Below are positions 15,739 through 18,070 of a stretch of 19,724 bases of DNA, piece by piece. Made by a program: the position numbers and the translations under genes. This stretch comes from Pseudomonadota bacterium (GTDB lineage: Bacteria; Pseudomonadota; Gammaproteobacteria; Burkholderiales; Thiobacillaceae): the NCBI GenBank assembly GCA_021836225.1, contig JAKBJA010000059.1:1-19724 (forward strand), read 5' to 3'. A model generated the notes under the pieces. The model ran no database searches. It saw only the letters and a list, made by a program, of their open reading frames with translations, and was not told the DNA's origin. How positions within the stretch are numbered: position 1 is the stretch's first letter; each line of letters opens with the position of its first letter.

Positions 15739-17523
15739 ATGTCGATTTCATCCACTACCCGAAAGGCGGGGTCTTACACCGGCAACGGCTCGACGACGCA
15801 GTTCCCTTTTTCCTTCAAGGTATTTTCCGCGAGCGATGTCCTTGTCGTGCGCACCGACCCGGTGGGTGCGGAAAGCAACCTCGTACTCGGCACCGACTAC
15901 ACGGTAGCGCTCAACGCTGACCAGGACGCGAACCCAGGCGGCACGATCACTGCCACGACGGCGCCAGCTACCGGCTACCTGATTACTGCCACCAGCCAGG
16001 TGCAAAACCTGCAACCTGTCACGCTGACGAATCAGGGCGCGTTTTATCCGAAGGTCATCAACGACGCTTTCGATCGCTTGACCATCCTCGTGCAGCAGGT
16101 GGCCGAACAGGTCGGCCGCGCGGTCAAGGTAGGCATTTCCAGCAGTACGACGCCGGATCAGCTTATTGCGCAGCTAAACACCAACGTCAGCAACGCGGCA
16201 AGTTCTGCTAGTGCCGCATCGACAAGCGCTTCGACGGCTTCGAGCGCGGCGACGAATGCCTCCAATAGCGCGACAGCGGCGGCGAATAGTGCGGCAAGTA
16301 TCGCGTTGCCCTTGTCTGTGGCGAGTGGCGGAACGGGCTCCACTACCGCGGCGGCGGCGCGTACTGCGCTGGAGGTGGCGGCCCTCGCCGGTTCCGCATC
16401 GCAGGTATTCAGTGTAGCGCCAGCGACCGGTGCAGCACATGCAGTACGTTTAGATCAGTTTGACCCGATGGCTTTCTACAAGGCCGATTCACAGACCCCG
16501 GCTTTCGTCAAAACCGGCGCCGACACCATCAGCGTGAAAGCCGGAACTTCTGCAATGGTGGCGGGTGTTCTGGTGACCTGGGCTGCTGATACCGCCATCA
16601 CCATGCCGACCCTGACGGCCGGCACGGATTACGCAATCTATGCCTGCGCGGACGGCACTATTCGCGCCGACGCCAACTGGTCGGCACCGACCGGCTACAC
16701 CACGGCGAACTCGCGCAAGATCGGCGGCTTCCACTACGGCCAGGTTGCCAGTGGCACCACGGTGGCCGGTGGCAGCTTTGCGACGACCGGCAACGGCATG
16801 ATCTGGACGCAAACCGATGTCGACAACATCGCTGGCATCAACTCGTTCAGCATTTGGGATTTGAAGTTTCGCCCGGTGGCCGCCGACCCGCGCGGCATGG
16901 CATTGGTCGGCGGCCGCACCTGGGTGGACATCTACCTGTGCTCGACCGATACGGCGACCTATGGCACCAGCAAGGCCGGGACGAACATCGCCTCGGGCAC
17001 CGTGCTGCCGAAAATCCCGGCTGCATTTGGCGGCGATGGCACGGTCACCTATCCTTCGCTGAACTGGTGGGTAGCCAACGAACTGGCGCGCGCTAACCAA
17101 AAGCGCCTCATGTGTGAAACCGAGTTCGTCGACGCGGCCTTCGGCGTGACTGAAAACCAGTCGATTGACGCCACGGCGAGCACCTACCCGACGACCCAGC
17201 GCAATGCAGGCTACACCTCGAAGTACGGCATCGAGCAAGCGTCCGGCCATCATCAAGTTTGGGGGCAGGACTCCAACTTCTACAGCGAAGCGGCGAGTCC
17301 GGCAGGAAGCTGGAAAGACGTGAACGGCAACAACGGCGCCGGCACTGGCCGAGGTCAGGAATACACCTTTGGCACTTACGGTCTGACTCGCGTCGTCCTC
17401 GGCGGCGCGCGTACGAACGATGTGAACTCTGGTTCTCGGTCTTCCAGCTGGAGCCTCTTCCCGTGGAGCTCGGGCTGGTACGTCGGGCTGCGGGCCGCCT
17501 GTGACCACATGACGCTTGTATAG
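15739..17523 (+). CDS. mtd: Chimeric tail fibre: T7-type anchor fused to Mtd-type receptor-binding region
   Basis: This encodes 594 residues. Residues 1-~135 (RKAGSYTGNGSTTQFPFSFKVF ... VLGTDYTV ... NDAFDRLTILVQQVAEQVGRAV) are the virion-anchoring N-terminal domain of T7 gp17-type fibres. Residues ~145-195 are an Ala/Ser/Thr-rich, probably coiled shaft, followed by a GGTGSTTAAAARTAL junction at ~199-213. From residue ~244 to the end it follows BPP-1 Mtd as I recall it: FYKADSQTPAFVKTG, TADTAITMPTLTAGTDYAIY-like, RADANWSAPTGYT, RKIGGFHY, SIWDLKFRPVAADPRGM, then the C-type-lectin end with GSR at 565-567 and CDH at 588-590. It should bind the host receptor. BPP-1 Mtd is 381 residues and lacks this anchor, so this is a domain fusion. 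The start is ATG 15739 with CAGGAG eight bases upstream. Confidence 0.92.
   Translation: MSISSTTRKAGSYTGNGSTTQFPFSFKVFSASDVLVVRTDPVGAESNLVLGTDYTVALNADQDANPGGTITATTAPATGYLITATSQVQNLQPVTLTNQGAFYPKVINDAFDRLTILVQQVAEQVGRAVKVGISSSTTPDQLIAQLNTNVSNAASSASAASTSASTASSAATNASNSATAAANSAASIALPLSVASGGTGSTTAAAARTALEVAALAGSASQVFSVAPATGAAHAVRLDQFDPMAFYKADSQTPAFVKTGADTISVKAGTSAMVAGVLVTWAADTAITMPTLTAGTDYAIYACADGTIRADANWSAPTGYTTANSRKIGGFHYGQVASGTTVAGGSFATTGNGMIWTQTDVDNIAGINSFSIWDLKFRPVAADPRGMALVGGRTWVDIYLCSTDTATYGTSKAGTNIASGTVLPKIPAAFGGDGTVTYPSLNWWVANELARANQKRLMCETEFVDAAFGVTENQSIDATASTYPTTQRNAGYTSKYGIEQASGHHQVWGQDSNFYSEAASPAGSWKDVNGNNGAGTGRGQEYTFGTYGLTRVVLGGARTNDVNSGSRSSSWSLFPWSSGWYVGLRAACDHMTLV
17401..17520 (+). 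other. Variable-repeat-like (VR) segment with an IMH-like end
   Basis: These codons 555-594 align without gaps to the variable region of BPP-1 mtd. Fixed landmarks (GG, SGSR, W571, P575, G583, R585, CDH, final L) are kept while the residues between differ. At nine of the eleven columns where I recall AAC codons in the BPP-1 template repeat, this sequence has an NNC codon: N560, N563, S570, S572, L573, S577, G579, Y581 and, by the neighbouring ATC, V582. The end resembles the initiation-of-mutagenic-homing site: 15 of 16 bases are G/C at 17484-17499, followed by TGTGACCAC. No template repeat was found in the window. The BPP-1 comparison is from memory. Confidence 0.7.
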
Positions 17524-17576
17524 CGAGCGAAAGCGAGCGATGGAAGTTGTGATACTCCCAATCCCCCCTTTCGCTC
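17522..17576. repeat. Repeats immediately after the tail fibre stop codon
   Basis: Two 9-base direct copies of AGCGAGCGA lie at 17522-17530 and 17532-17540. In addition GAGCGAAAG (17525-17533) is perfectly inverted at 17568-17576 (CTTTCGCTC) with a 34-base loop. In BPP-1 a DNA hairpin just after the VR assists mutagenic homing; the short GAAA-loop hairpin expected there does not form here, so this longer structure is only a positional analogue. The 133-bp gap 17524-17656 otherwise holds no gene I can support, and it ends with the TTTAGGAG ribosome site of the next gene. Confidence 0.55.
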
Positions 17577-17656
17577 ACCCGTTTCGTTGCCTCATGGCGC
17601 GGCCACGCGCAGTGGGCCAATTCGTTAAACCTGCTAAATCGTTTAGGAGTCGCACC

Positions 17657-18070
17657 ATGACCAAGCACGCATACAGCCCCGACACCGGGGAACTCATCCG
17701 CACCGAAACCCCCGCCGAATGGATGGGACTCACCGACGTGGCCCCGCCCACTTTCGACCCGGCAACCGCTGGCTGCTTCTGGCGCGGCGACCATTGGGAG
17801 ATTGTTCAGGCCCAGCCTCCGGTCGATCCTGTACCCGCTGCTGTGTCCATGCGGCAGGCTCGCCTCGCGCTGTTGAAGGCCGGGTTACTGGCCCAGGTCA
17901 ATACCGCCGTCGCTGCCATGCCTGGCCCTGATGGCGACGCGGCCCGCATTACTTGGGAATTCGCGGGCGACGTGCAGCGCAGCGATGCCCTGTTGGCGCA
18001 ACTGGCCGGCGCTCTGAACTTGAGCACCGCCCAGCTTGACGATCTGTTCCGCACGGCGGCCGCGCTATGA
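17657..18070 (+). CDS. Tail-fibre-assembly-like protein
   Basis: This encodes 137 residues from ATG 17657, chosen for its TAGGAG ribosome site; the open frame extends upstream through non-coding sequence. The first half (YSPDTGELIRTETPAEWMGLTDVAPPTFDPATAGCFWRGDHWEIV) resembles the N-terminal part of phage tail-fibre chaperones. The second half (SMRQARLALLKAGLLAQVNTAVA ... ARITWEFAGDVQRSDALLAQLAGALNLSTAQLDDLF) matches the common C-terminal module of small proteins encoded right after fibre genes. A folding or trimerisation role for the adjacent fibre is inferred. The stop overlaps the next start (ATGA, 18067-18070). Confidence 0.7.
   Translation: MTKHAYSPDTGELIRTETPAEWMGLTDVAPPTFDPATAGCFWRGDHWEIVQAQPPVDPVPAAVSMRQARLALLKAGLLAQVNTAVAAMPGPDGDAARITWEFAGDVQRSDALLAQLAGALNLSTAQLDDLFRTAAAL

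Follow-up and report, generated by a model that had tools for sequence, protein, structure and literature searches.

The window analysed here is a 19,724-nucleotide (nt) stretch (19.7 kb) of a phage genome (GenBank assembly GCA_021836225.1, contig JAKBJA010000059.1). It contains a single gene in which a tail fibre is fused to a receptor-binding protein resembling Mtd of phage BPP-1, and the gene ends in a variable repeat (VR) of the type found in diversity-generating retroelements (DGRs). In the related locus L006 (IMGVR_UViG_3300001605_004927), which has a DGR, Mtd is followed by avd, the template repeat (TR), the reverse transcriptase (RT) gene brt, and then the same genes in the same order as behind the fibre of the window. 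An earlier note on this DNA had proposed a DGR-type VR at the fibre end with no cassette alongside, the cassette being either remote or lost with one fibre variant frozen. The cassette is indeed absent: beyond the remnants in a deletion scar, no TR (searched on both strands), avd or further RT pieces were found in the window. Of the parts of an autonomous DGR, the window holds the RT as a 25-codon remnant and Avd as its start region, and it has no TR.

The 133-nt spacer between the fibre gene and the next gene reads as a deletion joint. On its left side a hairpin motif is followed by 8 nt from the start of avd, and positions 17525-17547 are 95.7 % identical to the sequence ahead of and into avd in the relative L064. 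On its right side positions 17578-17654 match the 3' end of L006 brt, with a local score of 74 compared to 28 for the best of 200 shuffles, and the match continues unbroken into the same next gene as in L006. An adjacent cassette was once present and was then deleted, as the scar at 17540-17654 shows; of what the earlier note had offered, the loss of the adjacent cassette is confirmed and the freezing of the variant is something we infer. Between the relic and the brt ends of the phage of L005 and of L006, the ratios of synonymous to non-synonymous codon differences are 9:2 and 10:3, respectively. These differences are mostly synonymous, so selection probably acted on brt during most of the time in which it diverged, and the deletion is probably comparatively recent.

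The VR carries the footprint of a DGR. It was compared with the TR of a relative, as the window has none; the TR of L006 (12505-12608 of that locus) scored highest among the 65 TRs compared. Relative to it, 11 of the 21 template adenines were changed and 3 of the 83 other bases (Fisher p = 4.2e-7), and the next five best TRs gave an adenine bias with p values of 9e-5 to 3e-4. On this adenine-specific substitution pattern, a resemblance of the VR by chance was rejected. In L006 the VR differs from its own TR at 9 bases, all of them template adenines. For 65 relatives pooled (64 of the 66 intact loci described below plus L150; L164 and the gapped L183 were omitted), comparison of each VR with its own TR gave changes at 793 of 1615 template adenines, against 101 of 5861 for the remaining bases, and since these relatives show the same adenine-biased change, the window follows the pattern of its kin. 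As a separate observation, 80 of the 83 non-adenine bases agree between the window VR and the L006 TR, despite the Mtd genes being only about 77 % identical over the 500 nt upstream of the VR; this reflects either an unexplained conservation or an exchange of the repeat module.

Table 1 Positions of the features discussed, given for the window unless another locus is named
Feature	Position	Strand	Remarks
Fused tail-fibre/Mtd gene	15739..17523	+	594 amino acids; two separate genes in L006, L005 and BPP-1
N-terminal part of the fibre	15739..16188	+	57 % identical to BPP-1 Bbp9; presumably the end that attaches to the virion
Mtd second domain and C-type-lectin receptor-binding domain	16459..17520	+	
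Variable repeat	17402..17505	+	portion alignable to the L006 TR
IMH-like 3' end of the VR, CGGGCTGCGGGCCGCCTGTGAC	17484..17505	+	identical in L006 VR and TR; role by homology to BPP-1
Hairpin motif CGAGC-GAAA-GCGAGCG	17524..17539	+	located like the homing hairpin of BPP-1; tandem G.A stem mismatches
avd start remnant, ATGGAAGT	17540..17547	+	8 nt
Filler at the joint	17548..17577	+	30 nt without match in the cassettes of relatives; 17568-17576 is the reverse complement of 17525-17533
brt remnant, RFVASWRGHAQWANSLNLLNRLGVA	17580..17654	+	last 25 codons; frame still open
Gene now next to the fibre	17657..18070	+	follows brt in L006
Cassette-less locus L178	3900-5198 of L178		common joint with L190
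Cassette-less locus L190	6001-7213 of L190		common joint with L178
Locus L180	475-3105 of L180		near-identical to L178 and L190; full DGR

An Mtd fold with a C-terminal C-type lectin domain was found in the fibre protein both by sequence comparison and in a structure model built from 80 sequences, which superseded a poor model from 14 sequences with a predicted local distance difference test (pLDDT) score of 40. The earlier note had stated that absence of this similarity would refute the VR assignment; the similarity is present, and the sequence, the fold and the adenine-specific pattern together uphold the assignment. The VR ends in a putative initiation of mutagenic homing (IMH) site. The G+C stretch of this site holds a T, whereas the corresponding 14-mer of BPP-1 is GC-only. 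A GC-rich stem and a GRNA loop have been reported as important for the BPP-1 hairpin (Guo et al. 2011, PMC3240598). The GAAA loop of the window motif and its location agree with such a GC-rich hairpin of 7-10 bp, but the stem contains G.A mismatches, and folding as DNA (-1.7 kcal/mol, z 0.45) gives no support for its stability. The BPP-1 stem is perfect, whereas a GAAA loop on a G.A-mismatched stem after the mtd stop codon was also seen in DGR-containing relatives such as L014, L064 and L067, as well as in L011, in which the RT is not visible. In the window, the part of the joint filler that is complementary to the 5' side of the hairpin can pair with it to form a new 9-bp stem, and the 63-nt fold has a z of -2.9.

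To place the window among its relatives, Mtd loci were collected from three IMG/VR scans, one scan of GTDB genomes, BPP-1 and the window itself. Two of the IMG/VR scans contributed the best 80 of 243 and the best 80 of 446 confirmed relatives, and the collection is thus a sample rather than a census; a search across 399 genomes of one order gave an Mtd match in 2. In the collection, 146 loci contained an Mtd 3' end. Collapsing those with identical last 400 nt left 105, of which 66 were intact, 26 cassette-less (26 of the 92 assessable) and 13 not assessable as the contigs end. For the tree described below 104 loci were labelled (66 intact, 25 lost, 13 not assessable), L175, also lost, being too short. 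Three loci were scored as lost on a short downstream sequence (268 nt in L190, where the joint is visible, 1410 nt in L099 and 788 nt in L001), and two as intact, L164 despite no detected avd and L008 despite a brt split over two frames. The share of 26 in 92 may overstate the true proportion, because assembly probably succeeds less often for loci with a DGR than for those in which it is deleted. In 22 of the 25 cassette-less loci besides the window (L017, L099 and L195 were left out), the VR was compared with the nearest TR; the adenine bias had p < 0.05 in 19 and did not reach this level in three (L125, p 0.061; L176, p 0.063; L171, p 0.64).

Remnants of a cassette were kept in 12 of the 26 cassette-less loci (the window, L001, L010, L081, L084, L101, L102, L130, L175, L178, L190 and L181), and 14 were free of remnants. 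The joints vary from locus to locus, except that L178 and L190 have the same one. Repeats at the joint were measured exactly as the 3 nt GAA in L178 and L190 and the 10 nt GCTGCTGCGC in L181, and alignment overlaps suggest repeats of 3 to 16 nt in L001, L010, L102 and L175. Partial brt pieces detected by tblastn in seven loci (the window, L084, L102, L175, L178, L181 and L190) all begin no earlier than residue 221 (of about 320), which means that each of these seven deletions stops only shortly before the cassette ends. They extend further than simple inactivation would require. When mapped on a tree built from the Mtd domain with the VR excluded, the label 'lost' takes at least 21 changes, of which 16 are forced by well-supported branches, and it does not clearly cluster (97 of 500 shuffles were as low). 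Because the tree was a quick search with gains and losses counted equally, and because recombination occurs among phage genes, this count serves as a guide; repeated cassette loss is supported more firmly by the differences between the joints. When 24 whole records were searched for an RT (PF00078), none of the 22 cassette-less ones, several of them short fragments, gave a match, and the sole match was in the intact L164.

Judged from sequence comparison, near-identical relatives with divergent VRs show the DGR at work in this group. L067, L068 and L079, from different contigs, are identical upstream as far as they were compared, and 6 to 13 of the last 141 nt differ between them; the near-identical pairs L093/L094, L114/L116 and L127/L129 differ at 20, 3 and 15 of these positions, respectively (the contigs of L068 and L129 are too short for the RT to be assessed). 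There are exceptions: the intact L158 and L163 have identical VRs, and the likewise intact L155 differs from L158 at 8 of 141 nt in the VR compared to 73 of 859 upstream. The cassette-less L178 and L190, IMG/VR records with different sample numbers, share exactly the same joint, a deletion of 1332 nt compared to L180, and a search of IMG/VR for this joint matched just these two contigs. They differ at 1 of 268 nt downstream, 1 of 859 upstream of the VR and 17 of 141 within it; in all, 1749 of 1768 aligned bases are common, and the two diverge beyond about 1.5 kb upstream of the VR. L180, with a full cassette, matches L178 and L190 upstream, with 1 and 0 differences in 1278 nt, and relative to its TR 13 of 25 template adenines are changed in each, with 2 of 92 other bases in L178 and 1 of 92 in L190. 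Either the VR was rewritten in trans after the deletion, or the difference arose by recombination exchange, from chimeric contigs or through the same deletion occurring twice.

Taken together, the window very probably comes from a BPP-1-like phage that lost its DGR by deletion in cis, and the fused gene encodes its receptor-binding fibre. The ancestral order would have been fibre/Mtd, avd, TR, brt and the next gene, as in present-day L006, and as long as the cassette worked, the 3' end of the Mtd gene would have been overwritten with cDNA made from the TR and mutated at its adenines. About 1.5 kb were then lost by deletion; the gap extends from within the first codons of avd to a point some 25 codons short of the brt end, and TR and RT went with it. 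The last tip variant would thereby have been fixed in an ordinary receptor-binding fibre, presumably evolving by ordinary mutation only. Among the relatives, fixation is favoured by the VR sequences of two cassette-less pairs, L015/L017, with identical VRs and 1 difference in 859 nt upstream, and L099/L100, with 6 of 141 differences in the VR, fewer than the 69 of 859 upstream.

Some points weigh against this interpretation. The left remnant is short, consisting of the hairpin motif and 8 nt of avd, and 30 nt at the joint are unmatched. Compared with the more distant L064, L014 and L008, the codon differences of the brt relic are less lopsided (8:5, 14:6 and 11:7, respectively). For the freeze the only hint is that an identical fibre protein is listed for two contigs, and since one of these is 43,762 bp long, much of the phage lies outside the window. 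The one joint with different VRs in L178 and L190 is not explained by a simple freeze.

It is possible, but in our view unlikely, that the fibre is instead a non-autonomous DGR target whose own cassette is gone and whose VR is rewritten in trans by the DGR of a co-infecting relative or a resident prophage. As the IMH-like end and the hairpin motif remain, the phage of the window may still be served in this way. BPP-1 deleted for avd, TR and brt could be complemented with these in trans (Guo et al. 2011, PMC3240598), and in the DiGReF study (PMC3521204) Pseudogulbenkiania is reported to have distal targets next to an RT that is strongly mutated. The pair L178/L190 fits rewriting in trans, although recombinants, chimeric assemblies or two identical deletions could account for it as well. 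On the other hand, the window hairpin has a mismatched stem and a weak fold, and pairing with the joint filler might block it. No RT was found in the 22 cassette-less records, the pairs L015/L017 and L099/L100 speak for unaltered tips, and a search of viral contigs for the VR pattern with template-adenine positions left open gave exact matches only in the contig of L006, twice. The extension of this idea to the group, according to which cassette-less phages are not frozen and their tips are rewritten by co-infecting DGR-containing siblings, with the mutator as a shared good, is likewise a tentative proposal that we do not favour. The avd-TR-brt segment of about 1.1-1.5 kb would then have been dropped, some phages keeping VR, IMH and hairpin, and L178/L190 with their DGR-containing twin L180 would be the natural case.

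That a complete cassette lies elsewhere in the same phage, the remnant being a decayed duplicate, is very unlikely. There is room for one in view of the 43,762-bp contig, but in all 66 intact loci the RT starts less than 2 kb from mtd (the label drew on 6 kb downstream only), and in the 22 cassette-less records, some of them short fragments, no RT was found elsewhere. Among 120 listed of the 7524 relatives of the L006 Brt none has a longest contig of 43,762 bp, which is a weak argument as only the longest contig of each cluster is shown. DGR loci are hard to assemble, as VR and TR repeat each other, and the deletion could in principle be a mis-join of a DGR-containing genome. This is hardly credible, since the joint runs from the start of avd to the end of brt and not from VR to TR, the 3' flank of the VR is intact, the 30 nt at the joint are absent from the cassettes of relatives, and joints of the same class occur in other contigs; a VR/TR collapse was rejected on the location of the joint. 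An ordinary C-type-lectin tip that never had a DGR, as the 14 remnant-free loci might suggest, has practically no probability in view of the adenine footprint and the brt remnant.

Among the closest known systems is the BPP-1 DGR with Mtd, Avd, TR and Brt (NC_005357). It shares with the window the Mtd fold, the VR at the 3' end of the gene, the IMH-like end, the GAAA-loop motif after the stop codon and the adjoining virion genes (44 % of the window can be aligned, at 78.5 %). It differs in that the window lacks avd, TR and nearly all of brt, and has a fused fibre and Mtd and a non-canonical hairpin stem. L006 has a Mtd domain 78 % identical to that of the window and the same gene order on both sides, but it possesses the cassette, and its fibre (267 amino acids) and Mtd (424 amino acids) are separate genes. 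In the BPP-1 dATR construct (Guo et al. 2011, PMC3240598), a laboratory deletion, avd, TR and brt are gone and VR, IMH and hairpin are left; in the window the same set was removed in nature, with the VR, the IMH-like end and the hairpin motif kept. Remote DGR targets in cyanobacteria (PMC7517822) and Pseudogulbenkiania (PMC3521204) also have VR-like sequences without a working RT of their own. These are extra paralogues in DGR-holding genomes, whereas the window fibre lost its adjacent cassette and left a readable scar.

Among the possible explanations offered for the patchy distribution of DGRs is repeated independent loss, and the strongly mutated RT near distal targets was reported in the same paper (PMC3521204); removal of the machinery after selection of a good variant was suggested for cyanobacteria (PMC7517822). 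No published account of DGR-cassette deletion scars in Mtd phages was found in a search of titles and abstract openings, outside of which most subscription journals lie. The present analysis adds a readable scar beside the fibre of the phage itself, together with a series of such scars among its relatives. Surveys that start from the RT (PMC6199706, PMC3521204) are blind to targets whose RT is gone. The scar proves that a cassette was formerly possessed, and the relatives lost theirs at different joints and kept the target gene. With this series it becomes testable whether hypermutation is costly and is dropped once a good variant has been found, or is shared between phages. If the mutator is shared, cassette-less phages would live on the DGRs of their kin in phage populations.

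The Bbp9-like fibre and Mtd form one gene both in the window (15739-17523) and in L181 (5275-6972), and both are DGR-less. L181 (IMGVR_UViG_2811995291_000003), which is BPP-1-like, shares the fusion, the cassette deletion and a kept hairpin with the window, but its avd is intact, and the TR and brt residues 1-270 have been deleted with the 10-nt repeat at the joint. A link between fusion and cassette loss is not established, as L164 is fused and has an RT; a further fused protein, P0024, and the RT P0165 each have a longest contig of 32,244 bp.

Some minor observations concern other RTs. The metagenome-assembled genome G014, which contains the sister case L001, holds two RTs, and no repeat resembling the L001 VR was found around them (in L062, all 5.2 kb of contig C87, and L063, 10 kb of C98). 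In L008 (8440-9389) brt lies in two frames, covering residues 1-247 and 229-317, due to a frameshift or sequencing error, perhaps as early decay. Second RTs, L051 (G005:C1:25370-26014) and L053 (G010:C1:8623-9285), are located on contigs with a complete Mtd DGR (L014 and L020, respectively).
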